Assembly (NCBI GenBank): GCA_040388375.1
Contig: JAZKBU010000001.1
Coordinates: 398,996 to 462,995, forward strand
Direction of reading: 5' to 3'
DNA: 64,000 nucleotides
Origin: Bacteroidota bacterium
Lineage (GTDB): Bacteria; Bacteroidota; Bacteroidia; UKL13-3
In this document: piece by piece, positions 7,663-43,939 of the stretch
Layout of the letters: each line of letters begins with the position of its first letter
Position numbering within the stretch: the first letter of the stretch is position 1
The notes under the pieces: model-generated
Database searches by the model: none
What the model saw: the letters and a program-made list of their open reading frames with translations, nothing else
What the model was told of the DNA's origin: nothing
Position numbers and translations under genes: made by a program

Positions 7663-10600
7663 TTAATGCATTACTACTAATTTTATAGTAGTGGTTTTAT
7701 TACCTGTTGTTACTCTTACAAAATAAACTCCGTTTTGTAAGTTAGCTGTTTGCAGGTTAACGTTATGCTGTCCTGCTGTTAAATCGCTTTCCAATACATT
7801 TACTACTGCTTTACCTTGTATGTCTAATAAGGAAACTACAGTATGTTCTGTTGATTGTAATTGAATAGCCAATGTAGCATCGCTGTTACTTGGATTAGGA
7901 AACACATTGATGTTTTCTACTGATGAAATGGTAGGAATACCCACGTTTTTCATACGTACCAACTTAACATTAAATGTTTCAGCTGACTGTAATGAATCGG
8001 TTGTTTCATAAGCATACACTGTCCATTTTAAGTTTAACGAATCGCCTTTGGCTATTCCGTTATTGGCAAGTATTACATCTAAAGCATTGCTGGTTAATGT
8101 TAACTTAGCATCTGCTCCTGTATTATCAGCATCCATGTTTAATAAAGGAGCTGTAAAGTTACCTGTTAGGGTAGCTGCTTTCCATTTGTATTTAGTTGCA
8201 TTAGCTGAAGCTGACCATGTAATAACAATTGGAGTAGTATTGTTTTGTTCTACTTCTACCCTTGCATTGTTAGCCGGAGCTGTTAAGTTAAATGAACTTA
8301 ATATACGTTTACGAATTACATTTATGTTCCAATCCTGACTTGCTTTTAATGAATCGTTAGCTGTTAAATAAGCATACACTGTCCATTTTAATACTGTTGA
8401 ATCGGTACGTTTAATACTTAATGAATTCAATACATTGTCTAATGCTCCACTTGTGATGGTTAATATACTATCAGCACCAAAATTATTTGCATTTAAGCGT
8501 AACAATGGTGTAGCAAAATTGCCTGCTACAGTAGTTAAAAACCATTTGTAAGTAATTGCATTGGTCGATTTTGTCCAGTTAATATTTACTGCAGTTGTGT
8601 TTGCTTCTTCTACTACCAGTCTGGTATTGTTAGCCGGAGCTGATAAACTAAATGCACCAAGTATTGCTTTGTTACGAGCCAATGTTATATTAAATACTTG
8701 TGTAGCTTGTAATGAATCGTTCACACCTTTGTAAGCAAATACAGTCCATTTGGTTTTAATTGAATCACCTCTGCTTACACTTAAGTTAGCCAACATAGCA
8801 TCTAATCCACCTGATGTTAAACTTAACAAAGTATCGGCACCTGCATTGTCAGCATTTACAACCAATAAAGGTGTATTAAAGCTACCTGTAGCTGATGTTA
8901 AGAACCATTTGTATTTAGTTGCATTTACTGAACTGTTCCAGTTTACCTGAATAGCTGAAGTATTTGCACTATCTGTATTTATTCTTGTATTGTTAGTTGG
9001 GTTCAATAAATTGAATGCTGATAAAGGTGTTTCCATGATATCTTTTTTACGCACTCCATATAATTGATAACCTAATGCACAACCGTTGGTTGGCGATGAA
9101 CAGAACTGTGCTAAAATACCCTCAAAAATGAATGAACCTTTATAAACAGTTACTGCCGGTGCATCTTCTACTTCGGTATCTTGTGCAGCAATGACTCTTA
9201 GTATAGTACTGTCGCCAGTATTCGGACCATCCCAAACGGTAGTATTGCTACTTGCAGCAAAGGTAGCGGCAGTGCTGTTGGTTTTTAAACCTACTATACG
9301 TACTAATTTACTTTCATACTGCTCACCATTGGTATTTATTTGTTTTAGTGTTACTAATATTGGAGCAGGAATAGTTGCATTTGTACTTAATTTAGTTACT
9401 CTGCTATTTTCACCAAATGCACCATTTCCAACATTAATTTGAGAATAATTGTTAAAATCACCTCTTCCTCCAACTACTTCTACAAAATCGCCTTCTTTTA
9501 AACCACTGCTTAAAATGGAATCAACCATGGCACCAGAAGATTGACGAACAGCAATAGCTCCTGTTGAATCTTGAATATAAATAAATCTACCCCAAGCTCT
9601 GGTAATTATACCTCTAACTCTTACTGTGTCGTTGTTAATTGAGCGTGATGATCCAATAGAAATTAATTGTTCTCCGATAGCCGTAGCAGGATTAAACATT
9701 TTTAAAATTTGTCCACCTTCTACAAATTCAGTATTAGTAGCATAATGAGCTTGGTCAACCAATAAGAAATTACCAGCACCTAATATATCTTGTACATCAA
9801 TTACTCCAGAAGCTTCTTCATCTTGTGTTAAGTAATTAGCAGCACCATTTATAAATCTAGTAGAATCGTGTGAAGCGATTAAAGTTAATTTGTCATTAGC
9901 AATAGTGTATTGCCATGTTTTACCTATATGAACATTATTTCCTACATCTTCTTGAATAATAATATGACCAAATTTATCAATACCTATATTGTCCATCATT
10001 TTAGGACCTTCAGTACCATCTAACACCGCAGTTATAGTTCCACCAGTTGTAGGGTTCTTAATATCATTAAAACGTAATCTCCACATTTTGCTTGGAGCGG
10101 TAAATGCATTGGTAGTTACAAAATAAAAGTCGTTAGGATTTGAAGGGTCAAAAGTGCCATCTTCTGGTCTTAAAAACTTAGTTACCAATAAAGCATTACT
10201 TGTATTATTTAAAGCCAAACCTGTTGAATCTTTAACTATTCCTAAATCAACCATAGTAAAGGCTGTGTTAGGAGCAGGAACAGTTGCACTTATTTCAGCA
10301 GCTAAACCTGTTACAGCTATTCCATATAATCTACCATTGGTTAAGCCGGCTTTGTCCATTTCATTTCCTGTATTGGTTTTATTACCTACATAAAAATAAA
10401 CTTGTCCATCTGTTCCATCATCCATTCCGGCTACTACTGTTTTGTCACCTGAAGCAGGAGATGCTACTGAGTTTTCCCATGAGAATTTACCTAAAGAAGG
10501 TAACTCGTATGTAGTACCGGCATTCGTTCCTGTAGCAATGTGTCCAAAAGCTCTTCCCTCTGTTCCATTTTCTTCACCATTCATAAATATACGCTCTTGT

Positions 10601-13600
10601 GTTCCTAATCCGGTAAGTGAATTATAGAAAGCAGAAACCGAAGGTAAATCAGCGGAGCAAAAACGAGTGAACGCTTTTTTACTTGTAGTATCAGCTGGAT
10701 TGTATAAAGTATACCCAATTCCTGTAGTATATAAATTTACTTTTTGAATTAAATCAGCACCACTTACAACGGATAAATCGTTTTTATTGATTACCCATTT
10801 AGAAACAAAAGCACCTTTAGCTCCATGTGCACGGTTAATACCAACTGTATTTCCCAACTCATGGTTAACTAATAATGTAAATGTTCCATTGTTATTATCC
10901 CAAGCACCTGTTCCATCAGGTATACCAACCATTTTGTAACCATTGTTAGCACTATCGCCTACAGAAAGGATGGAATTAAATTTCACTCCTGGAGCAGCCG
11001 AAGTTAAATAAGGAGTTTGTGACGAATTAGGTGAAGCACCTGCAAAAGCATTGGCCGTAGTAGGATTAAACATTTTTAAAATTTGTCCACCTTCTACAAA
11101 TTCAGTATTGGTAGCATAATGAGCTTGGTCAACCAATAAGAAATTACCAGCACCTAATATATCTTGTACATCAATTACTCCAGAAGCTTCTTCATCTTGT
11201 GTTAAGTAATTAGCAGCACCATTTATAAATCTAGTAGAATCGTGTGAAGCGATTAAAGTTAATTTGTCATTAGCAATAGTGTATTGCCATGTTTTACCTA
11301 TATGAACATTATTTCCTACATCTTCTTGAATAATAATATGACCAAATTTATCAATACCTATATTGTCCATCATTTTAGGACCTTCAGTACCATCTAACAC
11401 CGCAGTTATAGTTCCACCAGTTGTAGGGTTCTTAATATCATTAAAACGTAATCTCCACATTTTGCTTGGAGCGGTAAATGCATTGGTAGTTACAAAATAA
11501 AAGTCGTTAGGATTTGAAGGGTCAAAAGTGCCATCTTCTGGTCTTAAAAACTTAGTTACCAATAAAGCATTACTTGTATTATTTAAAGCCAAACCTGTTG
11601 AATCTTTAACTATTCCTAAATCAACCATAGTAAAGGCTGTGTTAGGAGCAGGAACAGTTGCACTTATTTCAGCAGCTAAACCTGTTACAGCTATTCCATA
11701 TAATCTACCATTGGTTAAGCCGGCTTTGTCCATTTCATTTCCTGTATTGGTTTTATTACCTACATAAAAATAAACTTGTCCATCTGTTCCATCATCCATT
11801 CCGGCTACTACTGTTTTGTCACCTGAAGCAGGAGATGCTACTGAGTTTTCCCATGAGAATTTACCTAAAGAAGGTAACTCGTATGTAGTACCGGCATTCG
11901 TTCCTGTAGCAATGTGTCCAAAAGCTCTTCCCTCTGTTCCATTTTCTTCACCATTCATAAATATACGCTCTTGTGTTCCTAATCCGGTAAGTGAATTATA
12001 GAAAGCAGAAACCGAAGGTAAATCAGCGGAGCAAAAACGAGTGAACGCTTTTTTACTTGTAGTATCAGCTGGATTGTATAAAGTATACCCAATTCCTGTA
12101 GTATATAAATTTACTTTTTGAATTAAATCAGCACCACTTACAACGGATAAATCGTTTTTATTGATTACCCATTTAGAAACAAAAGCACCTTTAGCTCCAT
12201 GTGCACGGTTAATACCAACTGTATTTCCCAACTCATGGTTAACTAATAATGTAAATGTTCCATTGTTGTTATCGTAAGCTCCTGTTCCATCAGGAATACC
12301 AACCATTTTATAGCCATTTTCAGCGGCATCACCAACGGTAAGAATTGGATCTATTTTTACACCGGCTGCTGCTGGTGTTACATATGCCGATTGAGAAGAT
12401 ACTGATAAAACAGCCGGTTTATAATTTGCTAATTTTTTAGCACCACTTATACGGTAAGTAATTACATGACTTAGATTACCTGTTGCGGTAGCAATACCAT
12501 TTGCAAGAGCAGATTTTTGTCCAAAATCATTATCGTTTCCAATAGCAATGGTGCTATCATTGATAATGGCTAAACCTTCTGCTTTATCTAAAACCGCAGG
12601 CCAGCCACTTGCTAATAAATCAATAACCAAAGTTTTGCTTACTGCTTTAATTCCATAAGCAGCTAAACCTGTTGAGTCAACTAAACCTTCTAAAGTATTT
12701 GTTCCATATAAACCTGAATGTACAGCTGTAGCCTGGTTTATATTTATCTTGTATAAACGTTTAATATCACTTGTTCCTCTTGCTGCTGCTTCTAATACTA
12801 AAAATGTACTATCGTTAATAGCAGCCATATCACCAATTTTCCAATCACTTAATCTAATTTGGTTAGCACCGCTTGCTCCTATGATACCATCATTTAAATA
12901 AACTATCATGCGTTGATTGCCGGTTGCAGGGTCAATTTCCAATATGCGATGAACCCTGCTGTTATCACCAACTGTAGCGGTTGGGTATAAAATACCACTT
13001 TGTATCATTGCATAAATTTTTCCGTTTGGAGCAATTGAAATGCCTTCAAATCCACGGTTGTTTTTGCGGTATTTAAAAACAGAATCAATTTGAACATCTA
13101 CAGATTGTTTACCTGCTAAATGAGCGTAAGGAGTATATCTTTTAATTAAAACACCATTTGGATTTAACTGCCAAATAGTAGCTCCGCCTTCTTCGCATAA
13201 CCAGAAGTTACCCGCTTTATCAACTACCAATCCTTCAGGGTCTATACCAAAAGTATCTTTAGGAGTTGTTTTTAAATTAAAGTTAGCACAATTCTGAACA
13301 GTATCAGTTGAAGCTACTTCGGCTGCGGTACTTCCTAATCCTGTTGGATTAATAATACCGGTAGCACCAGTTCCATTCGGACGTTTTATGGTAATACTTT
13401 GTAAAATTTGTATAGAGTCACCAACAATACGTATGCGATGAATTTTAGGCGTGTATGAAGGGAATGCATACATTTTATCGTAAGTAGGTCTGCAACTTGC
13501 TGTATTAGCATTGGCACAATCAATATTCACCCCACGGTCAGAGCAAGTCCAAAACTCTGTTCCATTGGTATTTGGAATAGGAAATAAAGTGGAGAAACCA

Positions 13601-15333
13601 GCTTCTTTGTAATTGATGCCTTGAAATGTTCCAATGGTAGCCGAAGTATTATTTTTATAATCTTGTAATTTGGTTATACCTTCTGTTTCCGGTGTATTTA
13701 AAGTATAAAATGCTACCGTGCCACTTACTTCGTTCGAAAGCATAATCATATTTACACCATTTGGACTTTCTGAACTAGGAATAAATGCAATTCCCTCAGG
13801 ACCTAAATCGCCCACAGTAGACAAATTAGCCTGACTTGGAGTAACACTAAAATTTCTGGAATTAATATATTGTACAAAGTAAGGTGCAGTTGGATTGGTA
13901 ATATTATAAATCATTATACCACCAATTCTTTCTAAAGCAACAAAAGCATAAATACTGTCTTTAATTTTTCCAACAGTTACACTTTCCGGCTCAGGTCCTT
14001 TGTTATCACTTCTATCGTCAAGAGCATTGGTAGTATGTCCTGCATTAAAATAAGCCGGGTAACTATTTTTTGTAATTTGTTCAAATTCATCTTTACTATC
14101 CCAAACCAAAGCTCCGGTAGTGCTATTCCAAATAGAAAACGAGCGACCTCCAAAAGCAAAAATACTATCAAATTTCCCATCGTTATCAAAATCGCCATAA
14201 CGGTTTGTAACGGTTAAACGACCTAAAGCAGTATTGGCTTTGATAGCAGCCACTCCGGTAGCGCCACCGAATTTAGTAGTATCTAACACATAGGCAGCAT
14301 CACCCACTCTATTTTCTTCAACGTTGGCAGTACCCCAATCAGCGCGGGCATCTCCCTCATTGGCTGTGATTAAATAAGTTTGGCTTCCACTTTTAAACGA
14401 TGAAATTCCATCAGGTAAAAACAAACCAAAAACAGGAAAAGTATCTATTTTAGCTAAAGCACCATTTGAACCATTATCTCTGTCTGATGGGTCTAAACCG
14501 TTTCCTAAAAGTACATGGTTTTTATAGCCTAATGGTAATAAACTTGTTACTGTAGCAGTATTAATGTTTACCACTGCAATGGCATTATTTTCCTGGCAAG
14601 TAACCCATGCTGTTGAATTATCTTCAGAAATGGTTATGTATTCTGGTTCTAAATCTTCGGCAACCGTTGAATTACGCAAAAAAGTACCACCCGACTGAAT
14701 TTTTCCAAAAATTCTAATCTTTGAATCAATAACAGCAGGAGAGTTAAAAGCAGTAAAACCGGCAGTTTGCACATTGGCTTGTGTTAACGAAGCCGCACCT
14801 CCGCTTAAATCAATAATTGAAATAGAACCTTCCGGGTCTATTGTATAACCTACATTGGGTTCACCTTCGTTGGCACATATTAATTTATTTCCATCTGAAG
14901 TAAATATAATATGATCAGTATTTGCACCGGCCTTTACTTTACTTATAAAGTTTCCATTAATATCGGTAAATACAATGCTACTAGCATTGGTTTTTCCATT
15001 CGAATCAACAACTGCCATAGCAATTAAACCTTTTTTATTGCAAGCAATAGAATTGATGTCAATACCATAAGGTTTAATAGAAAGTGTAGTAATTAAAACT
15101 GGATTGGCAGAGTTTGCAATGTTTACAATTTTAACTGTAGAGTCAGGTCCATTGATTACAAACATACGTTTGGAACCCGGATCGAAAGCAGAGATTTCGG
15201 CTACACCTCCATTGGAATTGTATGTTCCAATAGAATATCGCCCTAAAAACTGCGCATTAATTTGCGCTTTACCTTTTAAGTGGAATAGTACACTACAAAG
15301 AGTAAAGAGAACAAGGGTCAAATTTTTTCTCAT
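7663..15333 (-). CDS. Giant secreted protein: choice-of-anchor I, phytase-like, two PhoX-like modules, OB-like, three Fn3-like repeats, T9SS tail
   Basis: I place the start at 15333 (MRKNLTLVLF...GKAQ, a good signal peptide) rather than at the upstream Met at 15363, giving about 2556 residues. Domains in order: choice-of-anchor I beta-propeller-like (about 25-545); esterase-like phytase/PF13449 type, with 'EGISIAPNGKIYAMIQ' (about 555-985); two PhoX/DUF839-like modules, 'VGIPDGTGAYDNN...LLVNHELGNT' (about 991-1430 and 1450-1888); an OB-like module, 'RVRGIITRAWGRFIYIQD' (about 1890-2095); three ~119-residue Fn3/SusE-like repeats (2104, 2224, 2343 onwards); and a type A sorting tail (about 2470-2556). 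PhoX-family enzymes are calcium- and iron-dependent phosphatases and phytase-like proteins act on phosphate esters, so extracellular phosphate release is plausible but inferred. The cores of the two PhoX modules are nearly identical in DNA. Confidence 0.85.
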   Translation of the reverse strand: MRKNLTLVLFTLCSVLFHLKGKAQINAQFLGRYSIGTYNSNGGVAEISAFDPGSKRMFVINGPDSTVKIVNIANSANPVLITTLSIKPYGIDINSIACNKKGLIAMAVVDSNGKTNASSIVFTDINGNFISKVKAGANTDHIIFTSDGNKLICANEGEPNVGYTIDPEGSISIIDLSGGAASLTQANVQTAGFTAFNSPAVIDSKIRIFGKIQSGGTFLRNSTVAEDLEPEYITISEDNSTAWVTCQENNAIAVVNINTATVTSLLPLGYKNHVLLGNGLDPSDRDNGSNGALAKIDTFPVFGLFLPDGISSFKSGSQTYLITANEGDARADWGTANVEENRVGDAAYVLDTTKFGGATGVAAIKANTALGRLTVTNRYGDFDNDGKFDSIFAFGGRSFSIWNSTTGALVWDSKDEFEQITKNSYPAYFNAGHTTNALDDRSDNKGPEPESVTVGKIKDSIYAFVALERIGGIMIYNITNPTAPYFVQYINSRNFSVTPSQANLSTVGDLGPEGIAFIPSSESPNGVNMIMLSNEVSGTVAFYTLNTPETEGITKLQDYKNNTSATIGTFQGINYKEAGFSTLFPIPNTNGTEFWTCSDRGVNIDCANANTASCRPTYDKMYAFPSYTPKIHRIRIVGDSIQILQSITIKRPNGTGATGIINPTGLGSTAAEVASTDTVQNCANFNLKTTPKDTFGIDPEGLVVDKAGNFWLCEEGGATIWQLNPNGVLIKRYTPYAHLAGKQSVDVQIDSVFKYRKNNRGFEGISIAPNGKIYAMIQSGILYPTATVGDNSRVHRILEIDPATGNQRMIVYLNDGIIGASGANQIRLSDWKIGDMAAINDSTFLVLEAAARGTSDIKRLYKININQATAVHSGLYGTNTLEGLVDSTGLAAYGIKAVSKTLVIDLLASGWPAVLDKAEGLAIINDSTIAIGNDNDFGQKSALANGIATATGNLSHVITYRISGAKKLANYKPAVLSVSSQSAYVTPAAAGVKIDPILTVGDAAENGYKMVGIPDGTGAYDNNNGTFTLLVNHELGNTVGINRAHGAKGAFVSKWVINKNDLSVVSGADLIQKVNLYTTGIGYTLYNPADTTSKKAFTRFCSADLPSVSAFYNSLTGLGTQERIFMNGEENGTEGRAFGHIATGTNAGTTYELPSLGKFSWENSVASPASGDKTVVAGMDDGTDGQVYFYVGNKTNTGNEMDKAGLTNGRLYGIAVTGLAAEISATVPAPNTAFTMVDLGIVKDSTGLALNNTSNALLVTKFLRPEDGTFDPSNPNDFYFVTTNAFTAPSKMWRLRFNDIKNPTTGGTITAVLDGTEGPKMMDNIGIDKFGHIIIQEDVGNNVHIGKTWQYTIANDKLTLIASHDSTRFINGAANYLTQDEEASGVIDVQDILGAGNFLLVDQAHYATNTEFVEGGQILKMFNPTTANAFAGASPNSSQTPYLTSAAPGVKFNSILSVGDSANNGYKMVGIPDGTGAWDNNNGTFTLLVNHELGNTVGINRAHGAKGAFVSKWVINKNDLSVVSGADLIQKVNLYTTGIGYTLYNPADTTSKKAFTRFCSADLPSVSAFYNSLTGLGTQERIFMNGEENGTEGRAFGHIATGTNAGTTYELPSLGKFSWENSVASPASGDKTVVAGMDDGTDGQVYFYVGNKTNTGNEMDKAGLTNGRLYGIAVTGLAAEISATVPAPNTAFTMVDLGIVKDSTGLALNNTSNALLVTKFLRPEDGTFDPSNPNDFYFVTTNAFTAPSKMWRLRFNDIKNPTTGGTITAVLDGTEGPKMMDNIGIDKFGHIIIQEDVGNNVHIGKTWQYTIANDKLTLIASHDSTRFINGAANYLTQDEEASGVIDVQDILGAGNFLLVDQAHYATNTEFVEGGQILKMFNPATAIGEQLISIGSSRSINNDTVRVRGIITRAWGRFIYIQDSTGAIAVRQSSGAMVDSILSSGLKEGDFVEVVGGRGDFNNYSQINVGNGAFGENSRVTKLSTNATIPAPILVTLKQINTNGEQYESKLVRIVGLKTNSTAATFAASSNTTVWDGPNTGDSTILRVIAAQDTEVEDAPAVTVYKGSFIFEGILAQFCSSPTNGCALGYQLYGVRKKDIMETPLSAFNLLNPTNNTRINTDSANTSAIQVNWNSSVNATKYKWFLTSATGSFNTPLLVVNADNAGADTLLSLTSGGLDAMLANLSVSRGDSIKTKWTVFAYKGVNDSLQATQVFNITLARNKAILGAFSLSAPANNTRLVVEEANTTAVNINWTKSTNAITYKWFLTTVAGNFATPLLRLNANNFGADSILTITSGALDNVLNSLSIKRTDSTVLKWTVYAYLTANDSLKASQDWNINVIRKRILSSFNLTAPANNARVEVEQNNTTPIVITWSASANATKYKWKAATLTGNFTAPLLNMDADNTGADAKLTLTSNALDVILANNGIAKGDSLNLKWTVYAYETTDSLQSAETFNVKLVRMKNVGIPTISSVENINVFPNPSNSDATLAIQLQSTEHTVVSLLDIQGKAVVNVLESDLTAGQHNVNLQTANLQNGVYFVRVTTGNKTTTIKLVVMH
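9681..10893 (-). repeat. Near-identical internal duplication, C-terminal copy
   Basis: About 1213 bases here match the block at 11055-12267 with a constant offset of 1374 bases (458 codons). By eye I found only isolated differences (for example at the base after CCGTAG and one in GTATTAGTAG/GTATTGGTAG). It encodes residues about 1481-1884 of the giant protein. Beyond both edges the copies remain homologous in protein but are clearly diverged in DNA. Confidence 0.95.
11055..12267 (-). repeat. Near-identical internal duplication, N-terminal copy
   Basis: Second member of the pair, encoding residues about 1023-1426. The 30 or so residues before it (TPAAAGVKIDPILTVGDAAE) are only similar to those before the other copy (TSAAPGVKFNSILSVGDSAN). 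Identity is therefore concentrated in the core. Confidence 0.95.
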
Positions 15334-15492
15334 AAAATTATTTTTTTTGATGCTGCAAATCACCCCAAGTAGTATTTTCTAATCGTATCCTATGTGTTAC
15401 TAAAAAGTGACCGAATAATTATGGGAACATTTTTTCGCTTTCTTTTTTATTCGTTCTCAAACACATACGTTTATTTAAAATGATTACAAATA

Positions 15493-33194: not shown

Positions 33195-33360
33195 GACTCC
33201 GAAGGAGTCAAATATGAATAACAGGACACTCAACAAATAACGGACTCCGAAGGAGTTCAATGTAAATAAAAAACTGTTTACATACCGGTATTCGACCCCT
33301 TCGGGGTCGCGAATTAACTCACCACATCATTAGCTATTTATATTTGACCCTTTCAGGGTC
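33195..33360. repeat. Cluster A of GAA-loop hairpins
   Basis: Four short palindromes: GACTCCGAAGGAGTC (33195-33209), GACTCCGAAGGAGTT (33243-33257), CGACCCCTTCGGGGTCG (33293-33309) and GACCCTTTCAGGGTC (33346-33360). Stems change together (CT/AG against CC/GG) while the 3-base loop stays GAA or its complement TTC. The intergenic stretch 33192-33506 contains these and the hairpin at 33406; no gene is seen. Confidence 0.9.
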
Positions 33361-33405
33361 ATTAGTAAGTGATATTCCATATAGATTTGCTATAACCTTA
33401 TTGCC

Positions 33406-33430
33406 CTTGTTGGTGTTCTTCACCAACAAG
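33406..33430. repeat. CTTGTTGGTG hairpin, copy 1
   Basis: CTTGTTGGTG-TTCTT-CACCAACAAG, a perfect 10-bp stem. One of five copies in the window. It lies between hairpin cluster A and the CPBP protease gene. Confidence 0.9.
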
Positions 33431-33506
33431 TTTTTCGAAATTGCACATTAGCCTGCCTGATGCAAAACCCCTGTTACCTGCTGGACTTTTTTGAGTTAAG
33501 ATTATT

Positions 33507-34297: not shown

Positions 34298-34873
34298 TCA
34301 AGACATCTTTTTTCTTATTCGGCTAAAACTTTCTGGTGTAATTCCCAAATATGAAGCAATGTATTTGTTTGGCGTCCTCTGTATAATGTTTGGTTGCTTT
34401 TCAAACATTTCAAGATAGCGTTGTTCGGCAGTTTTTGATAATAGTTCTAACTGTTGCGTTTGTTTGTGTATGTACAAACTTTCAGATGCAATTTGGCAAA
34501 TTCGTTGCCCATATTCAGTTTTCGACAATAGCTCAAAATTTTGTTTGTCTATCCTAAAAAGAGTAGAAGGTTCAAAACAAATCACTTCGAGTTCTGTCGA
34601 CTGATTGGTGATAAATGAAAAATAATCGCCAAAAAAATCACCTTCGTAACACAAGTCAATGCACAGATAATTATTGTTTTGAAACAACATAATTCCACCT
34701 GAACCTTTTAAAATAAAATAAAAGTATTTTTCTCGCTCGCTATACTTTTTTAGCACTTCGTTTTTAGCAGTTTCAATTACTTGTCCACTTTCAGCAAATG
34801 TTTCCCAAATTTCTATCGGTGCATTAAAGTAAAGATCAAATGTTTGCTTAAAAGTGTCTGCTAAATTCTGCAT
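34298..34873 (-). CDS. Crp/Fnr-family regulator with cyclic-nucleotide-binding domain
   Basis: 191 residues: a cNMP-binding beta-roll (about 20-125, 'EREKYFYFILKGSGGIMLF' and 'LCYEGDFFGDYFSF') and a C-terminal winged helix with 'PNKYIASYLGITPESFSRIRKKMS'. The degenerate phosphate-binding cassette, lacking the usual RxA arginine pattern, is common among Bacteroidota Crp-like regulators. It precedes the CPBP protease gene on the same strand and is probably co-transcribed with it. The ligand is unknown. Confidence 0.87.
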   Translation of the reverse strand: MQNLADTFKQTFDLYFNAPIEIWETFAESGQVIETAKNEVLKKYSEREKYFYFILKGSGGIMLFQNNNYLCIDLCYEGDFFGDYFSFITNQSTELEVICFEPSTLFRIDKQNFELLSKTEYGQRICQIASESLYIHKQTQQLELLSKTAEQRYLEMFEKQPNIIQRTPNKYIASYLGITPESFSRIRKKMS

Positions 34874-35015
34874 TTTTATTTACTGTTGTTATTCAAAGGG
34901 TGTCTCGTAGCCTTGCAGGTAAATTGTATATAGGCCCCATAATAGGAGACCAATCTCTCTATTTTGGCTGGACAGGTCTCATAAATAGCCCTTTTATTTT
35001 CAAATGTATGTTTTA
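34874..35015. other. Intergenic segment with imperfect inverted repeat
   Basis: The stretch upstream of the Crp/Fnr gene has no gene. GGAGACC (34945-34951) and GGTCTC (34975-34980) are complementary at their cores, and flanking GGCC/GGGC stretches (34933 and 34988) extend a loose inverted repeat. It may be a worn recombination site like the two clearer ones nearby, but this is weak. Confidence 0.35.
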
Positions 35016-35141
35016 TTCATAAATCATCCATGTACTTTTTACCCTTGTTGGTGTTCTTCACCAACAAGTTTTATAGCTTCAACTATTTACAAAATACCCA
35101 ATGTAATTTAAACATAAACCACGTCAGTAAATTTAGTATTG
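35016..35141. repeat. Leader block, copy 1 (partial)
   Basis: About 126 bases matching 36406-36532: ATTCATAAATCATCCATGTAC, the CTTGTTGGTG hairpin (35044-35068), then TACAAAATACCCAATGTAATT and CACGTCAGTAAATTTAGTATT up to CTAAC. It abuts the attC-like site on its left side. The left third of the full block, present in the other copies, is missing here. Confidence 0.9.
35044..35068. repeat. CTTGTTGGTG hairpin, copy 2
   Basis: Perfect 10-bp stem with TTCTT loop, identical to copy 1. It lies inside leader block copy 1. Confidence 0.9.
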
Positions 35142-35266
35142 CTAACTGTTCCACGCCTTGCGCTGGTGCCGATTTTGGAAACGTATGTGTCCACAGATAT
35201 AATTTAATTAGAAAACGAAAAGCTCAATGTTAGAAGTTACCGGCACTTGCGCAAGACGTGTGTTAC
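35142..35266. repeat. attC-like recombination site 1
   Basis: 125 bases from CTAAC (35142-35146) to GTTAC (35262-35266). Read from the two ends, CTAACTGTTCCACGCCTTGC... and GTAACACACGTCTTGC... align as an imperfect inverted repeat, continuing to GTGCCG on both arms with a few unpaired bases on one side. This matches the general design of integron attC sites (RYYYAAC...GTTRRRY ends, bulged stem, variable centre). It starts 7 bases beyond the stop of the minus-strand gene at 35274. Confidence 0.6.
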
Positions 35267-35273
35267 GCGTGGT

Positions 35274-36293
35274 TTAGTCGAAGGAGTCATGTTTCCAATG
35301 GTCAACTGTAATTCGATCATATTCCGACATTACGGCCAACTCTTTTAACCCGTCATAAATAGGGTCTGGGAATCGCTCTAGCGCTGCAACAATATAAATT
35401 GCATGTTCATGATTAATTTCAGTCTTCGAATCTTTTAACACTTTCTCAATCATTTGCCTTGAGGCCGAGTCTTTATATTGAACCATGGCTCTGTAAAGCA
35501 TTCCTAGAATGTGGCCAGTGTTAGTTGAGACCTCTGCAAGTTCTCTCTTCTGAATGGTCTGCAAATAAGGAAAGAAGTCATTAGCCGGGAAATGTCTTAC
35601 AGCCTTCAGTCCGTCAAACCACTGCCAGATACTTGTGTCCACTAATAATTTAACTATTAAATCTTTGTCGCGTTCCTTATGGAATTTGGAGAGATATACA
35701 ATACACTTACCTGAGGATGTCTGAATGTAAATGGATCTTATTCGTTCATAGTGCTTTTCACTTGCAGGGGCTCTTTGGATTGCACTCCACTTGGCTGAAA
35801 GCATTATGGTAGCATCAAAAATCAATATACTGTCTATGAGGTTATTTTCTGATAAGGATAATTTATAAGCATCAGGTTCTTGATATTTGGAAGTTACCAC
35901 ATCCAAGAAGTAGTCACCAACCCGATACCTTGAAATTATGCAACCTTGAAAGGTTTTAACTGTTGTCGTGTCATGTAGGTGCTTGGTCAGAATTGTCAAT
36001 ACACTCGAGTCCTTCCTTTTGGCTAAAGCAAGAAAAGCGTAACATCTAACGGAAGCATTAGCATTGTCAGTAAGTAAAAGTAATTCTGATTTTGTCGCTA
36101 TCTTGTTGAGATTCTCAAAATTGATATATTGTTTAGACCTCGCACCTCCCTCTCCAATGGCGCGACTGTGAACCTGATTGTAGTCCGCAATAGAACGAAC
36201 CAAAGTTAGTACCCTTGGCCGTATATTTTGTCCCGTGGAACTAAATTGTCCGCACGTGAATAGAAAAGCTATTATAATGGATATGATTCTCAT
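35274..36293 (-). CDS. Exported HEAT-like repeat protein, cassette gene
   Basis: 339 residues with an N-terminal signal peptide (about 1-22, ISIIIAFLFTCGQFSSTGQ). Helical repeats such as 'NANASVRCYAFLALAKRKDSSVLTILTKHL' resemble HEAT/PBS-lyase repeats, with further pairs near residues 230-330. No catalytic motif was found. The ATG lies 8 bases after a GTTATGC core, and the stop is 7 bases before the attC-like site, so the gene occupies nearly the whole of a 1.16-kb cassette-like unit. Its codon use and GC look higher than the neighbours on both sides, consistent with transfer. Confidence 0.8.
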   Translation of the reverse strand: MRIISIIIAFLFTCGQFSSTGQNIRPRVLTLVRSIADYNQVHSRAIGEGGARSKQYINFENLNKIATKSELLLLTDNANASVRCYAFLALAKRKDSSVLTILTKHLHDTTTVKTFQGCIISRYRVGDYFLDVVTSKYQEPDAYKLSLSENNLIDSILIFDATIMLSAKWSAIQRAPASEKHYERIRSIYIQTSSGKCIVYLSKFHKERDKDLIVKLLVDTSIWQWFDGLKAVRHFPANDFFPYLQTIQKRELAEVSTNTGHILGMLYRAMVQYKDSASRQMIEKVLKDSKTEINHEHAIYIVAALERFPDPIYDGLKELAVMSEYDRITVDHWKHDSFD

Positions 36294-36307
36294 AAATCAC
36301 GCATAAC

Positions 36308-36532
36308 TTATATATATGTGCTATTTTATGGCACATATCCAACCAAAATTTGATGGATTGGTGCCATAACTAAATGCACATAATCGTATTGCAATGTATT
36401 ACTATTTCATAAATCATCCATGTACTCTTTACCCTTGTTGGTATTCTTCACCAACAAGTTTTTACAGCTTACACTATTTACAAAATGCCTCATGTAATTT
36501 AAACATAAACCACGTCAGTAAATTTAGTATTT
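36308..36532. repeat. Leader block, copy 2 (full)
   Basis: About 225 bases between a GTTATGC core (minus strand, 36307-36301) and the CTAAC of attC-like site 2. It shares TTGCAATGTATTACTATTTC and ATAAATCATCCATGTACTC with copy 3, and everything from 36406 with copy 1. Relative to copy 3 it carries about 44 extra bases containing an inverted repeat (TATGGCAC...GTGCCATA, 36318-36370 region). No gene is seen. Confidence 0.88.
36434..36458. repeat. CTTGTTGGTG hairpin, copy 3
   Basis: CTTGTTGGTATTCTTCACCAACAAG; one stem position is changed (GTA against CAC). It lies inside leader block copy 2. Confidence 0.88.
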
Positions 36533-36660
36533 CTAACGTTTGGCAGATTTGCGATGGGCGGGATTTTTACCACTGAACTTTATGCGGAGTACAGAACTTT
36601 CGGCTAATACTAAACTGTCTGCGGAGCGCGAAACCCCACCTATTGCAAATGTGCTGTTAG
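36533..36660. repeat. attC-like recombination site 2
   Basis: 128 bases from CTAAC (36533-36537) to GTTAG (36656-36660). The arms GCAGATTTGCGATGGGCGG and GCACATTTGCAATAGGTGG (right arm read in reverse complement) pair at most positions, several mismatches being G-T wobbles, and continue to GATTT/GGTTT. CTAAC is followed by an unpaired GTTTG on one side only, the asymmetry expected of attC. The minus-strand gene's stop codon TAA lies inside the terminal GTTAG. Confidence 0.65.
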
Positions 36661-37136
36661 TGGCTGGCATTTCTATCTTTGATTATTTTTATGTCCTGCT
36701 TTTTGTCCGTCAACCACAAATGAATTTCATAAAAGTCATCTCCATCAAGTCCATCGTCACTTATTTTGTCAAGATTACCATAATAAAGTCTTGCTCTATA
36801 AATCCCATTTTTAAGTTCAATTCTTTTTGCCTCTGGGAAATAGTCTGTGCAACCTGCTATTACAATTTTTCCTGAACTAATTTCTATGTCGCACTCGTTT
36901 ATTTGTACAATTACATTTTCGTTGTCAGTCAAAAATGGTGGTTCAATGTCAAATGTTTTAATTGTTACCGGAACATACATATTCCTTACTGTTCCAACAC
37001 CTATTGTTCCGTCCGCTGTCGCTAAAAGTTGTTCAACTGCTTCTGTTGTCCACTTGTCGCCCAAATCACCATCTACTTTTTCGTCTTGAATATAGAACTG
37101 AAAGTAGTCTGCAAAAAGTTCTAATTTAATTTCCAT
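36657..37136 (-). CDS. ComJ/Nin-like protein, cassette gene
   Basis: 159 residues from MEIKLELFADY (37136); an upstream Met at 37220 lies in the repeated leader and is less likely. The segment 'KWTTEAVEQLLATADGTIGVGTVRN' (split) resembles the 'W(T)DEAIE...AADGAISFEAQRN' region of Bacillus ComJ (Nin), inhibitor of the competence nuclease NucA. The rest is beta-rich with acidic stretches (DDGLDGDDFYEIHLWL). The match is from memory of the family and moderate. A nuclease-inhibitor or immunity role would fit a cassette gene, but no partner nuclease is seen. The stop codon is inside the attC-like core. Confidence 0.6.
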   Translation of the reverse strand: MEIKLELFADYFQFYIQDEKVDGDLGDKWTTEAVEQLLATADGTIGVGTVRNMYVPVTIKTFDIEPPFLTDNENVIVQINECDIEISSGKIVIAGCTDYFPEAKRIELKNGIYRARLYYGNLDKISDDGLDGDDFYEIHLWLTDKKQDIKIIKDRNASH

Positions 37137-37176
37137 GTTCACTGTCTTATGGTTGTCTTGTATGCTTGCCACTAAC

Positions 37177-37284
37177 TTATATATATGTGCCATAACCAAG
37201 TGCACGTAATTATATTGCAATGTATTACTATTTTATAAATCATCCATGTACTCTTTGCCCTTGTTGTTGTTCTTCACCAACAAG
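37177..37284. repeat. Leader block, copy 3
   Basis: From the GTTAGTG core (minus strand, ending 37176) through ATATTGCAATGTATTACTAT and ATAAATCATCCATGTACTC to the hairpin at 37260-37284. It matches copy 2 apart from the missing 44-base insert. Beyond the hairpin the copies part, and the sequence continues into hairpin cluster C. Confidence 0.88.
37260..37284. repeat. CTTGTTGGTG hairpin, copy 4
   Basis: CTTGTTGTTGTTCTTCACCAACAAG; one stem position is altered. The 79 bases 37260-37338 match the reverse complement of 43620-43698 with about six differences. Confidence 0.9.
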
Positions 37285-37323
37285 TTTATCGCTACTAGTC
37301 TTTTTGTGTTACCATCTTTGGTA

Positions 37324-37390
37324 GACTCCGAAGGAGTCAAATCTGAATAAAAAATACAACCCACCAGACACCCGACCCCGAAAGGGGTCG
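37324..37390. repeat. Cluster C of GAA-loop hairpins
   Basis: GACTCCGAAGGAGTC (37324-37338) and CGACCCCGAAAGGGGTCG (37373-37390; loop GAAA). The gap 37137-37471 holds leader block copy 3 and this cluster; no gene is supported there. Confidence 0.9.
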
Positions 37391-38965: not shown

Positions 38966-39096
38966 AGCTAAGCTCCTTTACAGTTTGGCTACTACATAAA
39001 AGCAAAAAGAAAGAAAAACGTATGTGTTTTTGCCTCTTTTTTTTGTAAAAACATGCTGCCTACGTTAGCGGGAACTAAAATAAATGAATGTAAAGC

Positions 39097-39275
39097 TTGC
39101 TCCCCCGGGGAGGAGCAAAAACCTTGCGCGGTAAAGGCTGCTCCGCTGCGGAGCAACACTTCCCACCAAAAAGAAAAGCTGCTCCCCTGCGGAGCAACAA
39201 AAAATTCCTGCGGTAAAACGTGCTCCGCAGCGGAGCACACTTTAGCGCGTGTTTTAAAAGCCGCTCCGTTGGGGA
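39097..39275. repeat. Cluster of TGCTCCG...CGGAGCA palindromes
   Basis: Five palindromes in 180 bases: TTGCTCC...GGAGCAA (39097-39118), TGCTCCGCTGCGGAGCA (39139-39155), TGCTCCCCTGCGGAGCA (39180-39196), GTGCTCCGCAGCGGAGCAC (39220-39238) and a weaker CTCCGTTGGGGAG (39264-39275). GCGGTAAA precedes two of them and CACTT follows those two, so the unit is longer than the hairpin. The region 38966-39667 otherwise shows no supported gene; open frames across the cluster in three phases are products of the repeat. Confidence 0.85.
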
Positions 39276-39667
39276 GAAACAAAAACGGACAAGAAAAACA
39301 TTTACTGACAAAATAACAATTAACTATAAATAAAGTGAAATCTTCACGATTAACGTAGTATAATCAACCCTCTTGAACACAATTTCCCAAAACTATAAAG
39401 CACAATTTAAAGCCACAAAAAAGGCAATAATGTATAATTTTTAAAGTAAACACTGAGGATGAACTGCGTCACCCAATGTTTTCAATACTTGTCATATATA
39501 ACTTTTTAAATATTGATGTAGAAAATCCATATTTAATATTATTAAACGTAATTATTTTCAATAAAAGTTTTCATTTTACAACAACAAACACCCTTACATG
39601 CATCTGACAAACAAATACTTACAAAAAATATGGCATGATATTAGTGGATTCCGTATAAAAAAATTAT

Positions 39668-43567: not shown

Positions 43568-43845
43568 CGACCCCTTCAGGGTCGTATGTTTTCGCGGTTA
43601 ACATTTTTTATTAATATTAGACTCCTTCGGAGTCTACCAAAGAAAGTAACACCAAAAGACTCGTAGCGATAAACTTGTTGGTGAAGAACACCAACAAAGG
43701 CAAAAATTGGACTCCTTCGGAGTCATTTCATACTATTGCTTGTGTTCATATAGCTGTGTTTACATGCAGGAATGAATGACCCTGAAAGGGTCAAATATAA
43801 ATAGTCAATAAAATCATGAGTTGATTCGCGACCCCGAAAGGGTCG
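43568..43845. repeat. Cluster B of GAA-loop hairpins
   Basis: Five palindromes: CGACCCCTTCAGGGTCG (43568-43584, one mismatch), GACTCCTTCGGAGTC (43620-43634), the same again (43710-43724), GACCCTGAAAGGGTC (43778-43792) and CGACCCCGAAAGGGTCG (43829-43845, one mismatch). Read in reverse complement, 43774-43845 follows cluster A 33293-33364 (shared GCGAAT.AACTC and CTATTTATATTTG spacer). The gap 43511-43939 holds only these and the copy 5 hairpin. Confidence 0.9.
43674..43698. repeat. CTTGTTGGTG hairpin, copy 5 (inverted)
   Basis: CTTGTTGGTGAAGAACACCAACAAA, the reverse orientation of copies 1-4. It lies between two GACTCC hairpins of cluster B and is part of the 79-base match to 37260-37338. Confidence 0.88.
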
Positions 43846-43939
43846 AATAGCTAGTATCAAAATCAGGTATTACAATAATAGTTTTGCTAAACAATATTTG
43901 TTTCATTTATTCGTTCAACCCTATTTACATTTAAAAAAT

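Follow-up and report, generated by a model that had tools for sequence, protein, structure and literature searches.

A probable orphan attI platform bearing the 3' end of a former integrase gene in an integron-like cassette array of a Bacteroidota bacterium

What is a gene-free block of about 225 bp, partly repeated nearby and bounded on both sides by GTTA cores, doing between cassette-like genes in the chromosome of a Bacteroidota bacterium? The block in question (positions 36308-36532, hereafter block B) lies in a stretch of 64,000 nucleotides, which we call the window, and is present there as described, without a convincing gene. The original prediction offered three options, namely a gene-less cassette, a repeated attI-like platform, or a promoter carrier. 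We consider it probable (about 0.85) that block B is an orphan attI landing platform, carrying the truncated 3' end of a former integrase gene, in an integron-like cassette array. The reading of block B as a landing platform minus its integrase gene is based on intact integrase-attI units in the same genome and on an insertion signature in the cassettes.

When the 225 bases were searched against the source genome, which comprises 3.97 Mb in 34 contigs and is 98% complete, the partial repetition within the window was borne out. In addition to the block itself, the search returned two window copies (35002-35139, 90% over 139 bases; 37186-37286, 91% over 101 bases). Block-B bases 1-124 have a further copy at C1:172402-172527, and the remaining matches, which are short and numerous, consist of a 25-base hairpin alone. 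The GTTA cores at either end were also confirmed: on the minus strand, they are the end of an attC site (36534-36537) and the core of an attI site (36304-36307), which places block B between an attC core (G at 36537) and an attI core (G at 36307), and the block does adjoin CTAAC cores. The first of the window copies (block A) is a genuine repeat whose extent had been drawn too short, as it reaches ~34924 and is a full-length third copy. Similarly, the ~44 bases that B has in excess of block C are a real difference, being the stretch between two attI direct repeats (TTATGGCAC) that is deleted in C. The other hairpin, CTTGTTGGTG-TTCTT-CACCAACAAG, belongs to a separate, genome-wide REP-like element.

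The copy at C1:172402 overlaps the last codons of an integrase gene (integrase 1) at its 3' end. Alignment on the minus strand revealed the last integrase codons in A, B, and C (...YMDDL* versus ...SPFDDL*), followed by the region downstream of the gene. This indicates that the block is not a free-standing leader; it combines the end of an integrase gene that has been lost with the sequence found behind such genes (Table 1). Block A has the full attI layout with a mutated core, TTTA at 34920-34923 instead of GTTA. Block C has an intact G^TTA core (37173-37176), and its sequence upstream of the hairpin differs from the leader of A and B. Neither the leader nor the stub was found in relatives, both being present in the source genome only; the matches in relatives were the hairpin alone (G040) or the attI part (G045 and G029).

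Table 1. Features of the three blocks and the adjoining cassettes (window coordinates)
Feature	Position	Strand	Remarks
Block B	36308..36536	-	Leader, REP-like hairpin, putative integrase 3' stub, and complete candidate attI
attI-B (candidate)	36304..36367	-	Spacing common to ~25 intact integrases; 0 matches in 20 shuffles
attI-B elements	DR1 36360-36367; inverted copy 36328-36335; DR2 36317-36324; core 36304-36307	-	DR2 is followed by TATATATAA, then core G^TTA
Integrase 3' stub	36407..36431	-	...KEYMDDL* (~8 terminal codons); the intact integrases have the homologous ...KSPFDDL*
REP-like hairpin	36434..36458	.	CTTGTTGGTR-TTCTT-CACCAACAAG; copies genome-wide; z = -5.05
Leader	36459..36536	-	GTTAGAAATACTAAATTTACTGACGTGG..., ~75 bp, behind the attC core; in A and B only
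Block A	34924..35145	-	Leader, hairpin, and stub as in B; attI with another motif (GAGACC)
Block C	37173..37284	-	Hairpin, integrase stub, and attI without the 44 bp between DR1 and DR2
attC-like site, cassette at attI-C	36531..36662	-	96.6 bits, E 1.6e-19; training site of model R1
attC-like site, cassette at attI-B	35140..35268	-	74.7 bits, E 2e-14; training site of model R1
Cassette gene after attI-C	36657..37136	-	159 aa, no known family; start GTTAGTGGC = reverse complement of attC 5' end
Cassette gene after attI-B	35274..36293	-	339 aa, no known family; start GTTATGCGT versus attC end GTTACGCGT
Crp/Fnr-type regulator gene after attI-A	34298..34873	-	

The window array contains integrase stubs only, with no integrase gene nearby; intact genes are found elsewhere in the genome. 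Integrase 1 is a 345-aa tyrosine recombinase (C1:172505-173539; L019:6503-7540, minus strand). Integrase 2 (L024:8327-9361), also intact and 74% identical to integrase 1, has an attI and cassettes directly behind it, the cassette genes all pointing the same way and being separated by hairpin sites. Residues R, K, H, R, H, and Y are conserved in both. The two proteins pass the NCBI family NF040815 (XerA / integron-integrase; 226.1 and 222.9 bits against a cut-off of 220) and fall short of the curated cut-off of 265 bits for TIGR02249 (IntI), scoring 210.9 and 201.6 bits. Where IntI4 (2a3v) has a stretch of 59 residues, there are 17 residues here. The distance from the K-box to HxLRH, taken in every new integrase and every IntI that allowed measurement, is 58-59 residues in the new integrases and 100 in IntI; it is 60-66 residues in three Xer proteins. 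The new integrases form one clade (100/98) and IntI a separate clade (100/99) in a tree whose long branches lead us to claim no order of the groups. In both family and fold, the catalytic part matches XerA / XerC-like recombinases best (NF040815; PDB 4a8e, 5hxy), and a fold search with the whole chain gave archaeal Xer and IntI4 as the best matches. The predicted structure (mean pLDDT 81, pTM 0.50) has an extra N-terminal part, residues 1-56, made up of strands and two helices, for which no Pfam family was matched. Judged from sequence, this is a clade of integrases that lacks the ~41-residue IntI domain and has an additional N-terminal domain. Directly upstream of integrase 1 there are ~150-bp tandem repeats (ggcggtgctgtgcatta...; L019:7680-9200).

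A single layout runs from the stop codon to G^TTA behind about 25 integrases. An 8-bp motif lies at -60, an inverted copy at -28, and a direct copy at -17, and the layout ends with TATANNNNA and then G^TTA, ~100 bp (97-127) past the stop codon. Integrases 1 and 2 each have such an attI, 100-102 bp past the stop codon. The 8-bp motif varies between integrases and agrees within a site (permutation test, 0/10,000 for the direct copy and 0/10,000 for the inverted copy). We infer that the N-terminal domain of the integrase may be the reader of these repeats. All elements of the layout are present in attI-B, with the GGCAC motif of integrase 1, which matches B and C and not A.

The partner sites were found in a scan of one genome per species, which gave 31 integrase loci, nearly all in Bacteroidota (Flavobacterium, Lutibacter, Chitinophagaceae, and others). 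The sites behind the integrases are ~126 nt long and read TAACA...GTTA. Nineteen aligned sites were used to build an attC model (R1), whose E-values are rough. Changes on both sides occur in 16 of 21 pairs of the alignment, and 92.7% of cells are paired, a percentage that is biased upward because the sites were picked for complementary arms. Two constants were not selected for, namely the length and an A x C mismatch whose place is fixed. Over all loci, the model gave 59 matches, of which 39 are further sites, co-oriented with the exception of one echo; those in integrase loci are all downstream of the integrase and on its strand, save for one weak reverse echo (an L024 site). The source genome has ~20 attC-like sites, clustered at C1:141-160 kb, at C1:226-231 kb (integrase 2), in the window, and on C5 and C9. 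The folding z-score of the site of the cassette at attI-B is by itself unremarkable (-0.14), and the support for this site comes from its conserved pairing pattern and position, not from folding energy.

An inserted integron cassette opens with bases complementary to the 5' end of the attC that it carries. To score this signature, the five bases after GTTA at the cassette start were compared with the reverse complement of the five before the TAAC of the cassette's own attC. At least four of the five bases agreed in 43 of 48 cassettes, against 5.75 expected from other pairings, and 0 of 20,000 permutations reached the observed mean. The signature was found in two of the three window units, the cassette at attI-C scoring 5/5 and that at attI-B 4/5; behind the Crp/Fnr-type gene, the attC model detected no attC. 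This signature is the strongest evidence that cassettes entered exactly at the cores of blocks B and C. The option of a repeated attI-like platform is supported as the right one, given an attI layout like that behind ~25 intact integrases and two cassettes with the insertion signature. As for the cassette contents, neither the 339-aa nor the 159-aa protein had a match in Pfam, NCBIfam, or PADLOC. The 339-aa gene has a homologue (30% identical) in another genus, where it is flanked by an attC site on each side.

Orphan attI sites are also found outside the window. The source genome has a second integrase stub (KSPFDDF*) with an attI within a cassette cluster (L151:8976-9100, i.e., C1:146976-147100), ~230 bp behind an attC, and the cassette behind it scores 5/5. 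In a relative (G045, locus L149), an attI lies behind a Lon-type gene with no integrase gene adjoining, and there the cassette-start match fails (1/5). Genes beside attC sites in that same relative resemble anti-phage defence genes (L149:878-4332 and L150:4701-7510); they include an AbiL pair (AbiLi, 1.3e-82; AbiLii, 1.1e-25), an ATPase with an Mrr/type IV-like end, a PDC-M60C-like gene, and a TIR/ThsA-like gene.

Wherever the system is intact, the integrase gene runs towards the cassettes, with the attI ~100 bp beyond its stop codon. The integrase would bind attI at the three copies of the 8-bp motif, two of them direct and one inverted, and would recombine attI at G^TTA with the folded attC that a circular cassette provides, so that this cassette comes to lie directly behind attI. 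At the window locus, a deletion may have removed the ancestral integrase gene from the 5' side as far as the hairpin, and the module of stub and attI may have been duplicated after that deletion. The B and C sites might still be servable in trans by integrase 1, given its GGCAC motif; this is a guess, because attI-B is 82% identical to the attI of integrase 1. A simple tandem duplication fails to explain block A, whose leader, hairpin, and stub are 93% identical to those of B and which yet has an unrelated attI motif (64% identity). The history of A would need a recombination event. The anatomy of the blocks, their homology to intact integrase-attI units, the cassette signature at B and C, and the array context can, by comparison, be read directly from the DNA.

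The explanation that competes with a landing platform least well is that the block is a mere REP/RAYT-type palindromic repeat that came to lie between cassettes by chance. The hairpin does occur at many loci (contigs C1, C2, C3, C4, and C7), with 5 window matches at up to 3 mismatches against 0.00 expected, and the genome has four matches to Y1-transposases of the RAYT type. However, it accounts for only 25-30 of the ~230 bases, and its other copies come without stub and attI, so that this origin is very improbable and is rejected for the block as a whole, while it holds for the hairpin. It is also improbable that the block is a promoter or leader driving the downstream cassette gene. It does lie directly upstream of each gene, and the 339-aa gene begins ~14 bp past the core; against this, promoter-like sites are no commoner than in shuffled sequence (8 versus 9.4 in shuffles), and the Bacteroidota-type pattern occurs 2 times versus 2.1 in shuffles and never on the gene strand, both being weak tests. 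These scans give no support to the promoter-carrier option of the original prediction. A terminator scan showed no excess, the hairpin being terminator-like on the plus strand only, opposite to the genes. No credible Rfam match was obtained over 30-46 kb, and no tRNA gene was found within 30-45 kb. The window copies of the hairpin are at 33406-33430, 35044-35068, 36434-36458, 37260-37284, and 43674-43698; the palindrome is usually preceded by GCC and has many copies in L017, L018, and L020-L023. The window has other repeats as well. Long repeats (88-91%) that carry GACTCCGAAGGAGTC palindromes stand in direct and in inverted orientation at 33195-33437, 37254-37355, and 43603-43849 and flank the cassette region and a sigma-factor gene; five copies of a GCTCC-N-GGAGC palindrome recur at 41-bp spacing at 39092-39281; and a 2566-aa open frame at 7663-15363, with plus-strand shadow ORFs at 1374-bp spacing, suggests a large internal repeat.

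Two further explanations stay closer to an integron. The copies may be inert debris that tandem duplication of a decayed integrase end left long ago and that plays no role today, a view that we doubt while granting it a real minority chance: the integrase gene is gone, the core of A is dead, and C lacks two of the three attI repeats, but no attI element is missing from B, and the insertion signature is preserved in the cassettes at both B and C. Past function and decay are, moreover, compatible. Somewhat more unlikely is that block B can move by itself, as a gene-less cassette of the kind in which attI replaces attC; the integrase would join the attC core at one end of the block to the attI core at the other and move it as a ~230-bp circle, which would have spread the copies. 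Formally this fits a block between two cores of the same orientation, and A and B share a leader directly behind two different attC sites; in class 1 and 2 integrons, functional cassettes have been reported in which a full or partial attI replaces attC and which are able to recombine (PMC12901181). On the other hand, the sequence upstream of the hairpin is a different one in C, the leader was found in the source genome only, and unequal homologous recombination yields the same picture.

The landing-platform reading can be compared with known systems. Among the features by which a functional integron is recognized, those found are a recombinase gene adjacent to the array, an attI insertion site, co-oriented attC sites, and the cassette-start complement. 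The likeness to IntI integrons (class 1-3 and chromosomal) covers the tyrosine recombinase, attI next to its gene and with accessory repeats, tandem co-oriented cassettes whose start is complementary to their own attC 5' end, and an attC with a GTTA core and a conserved stem. In contrast, the integrase here is without the IntI additional domain, has an extra N-terminal domain, and falls in a separate clade, and attC, ~126 nt long, pairs over 4 bp at its core and always has an A x C mismatch. The additional domain is what defines IntI in the literature (PMC9668308, PMC2426708). The Treponema "reverse" integrons, to which we liken the system by description, have the same integrase orientation and are filed as ordinary IntI integrons (PMC3607928). 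Delta-attI-type cassettes of class 1/2 integrons (PMC12901181) likewise have attI or a part of it inside the array and can recombine, but there attI replaces the attC of a gene, whereas here each cassette follows a full attI to which an integrase gene stub is still attached. CALIN elements, clusters of attC without an integrase, resemble the window array in having attC sites and no integrase gene nearby; they are defined as lacking attI, whereas the window keeps orphan attI sites. Archaeal XerA acts at chromosome dif sites, whereas the integrases described here sit at cassette arrays.

The attC type is present in 63 of 64 genomes of the window's family and in 138 of 198 of its class, and the integrase in 38 of the 64. 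Canonical IntI, in turn, scored above cut-off in 84 of 296 genomes sampled across the phylum, only one of the 84 being from the window's class. No site of this attC type was found in 19 of 36 genomes with canonical IntI, which indicates that the attC model does not simply detect any attC. Outside the class, G069, G064, and G079 have a canonical IntI and, on different contigs, sites of this attC type, and so the two kinds of integron may coexist. A complete plasmid of Chryseobacterium sp. SNU WT5 (NZ_CP041688.1) has the integrase and five attC-like sites (L102:12001-22126), together with two genes of the Crp/Fnr type, a type that is found in the window too.

Published surveys detect integrons by IntI-trained profiles, and IntegronFinder 2.0 found complete integrons in Bacteroidetes almost only in Salinibacter, with In0 before that (PMC9024848). 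Among the open-licence papers searched on integrons in Bacteroidota, Flavobacterium, and Chitinophaga, none was found to describe this system, and an earlier description elsewhere is possible. It is tempting to see here a separate and widespread integron lineage of Bacteroidota without the IntI domain, in which the N-terminal domain reads the attI repeats and one integrase would serve several orphan platforms and hence several entry points; we offer this tentatively, with the balance leaning slightly against it.

If active, the system would be a major way for Bacteroidota to capture genes, and one that has been overlooked. A long-standing question would also become testable, namely whether the additional domain of IntI is needed for attC recognition or is a later addition. 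The integrase-specific attI repeats would give a direct handle on the pairing of integrase and site, and orphan attI platforms such as block B would let new cassettes enter at several places in the chromosome.
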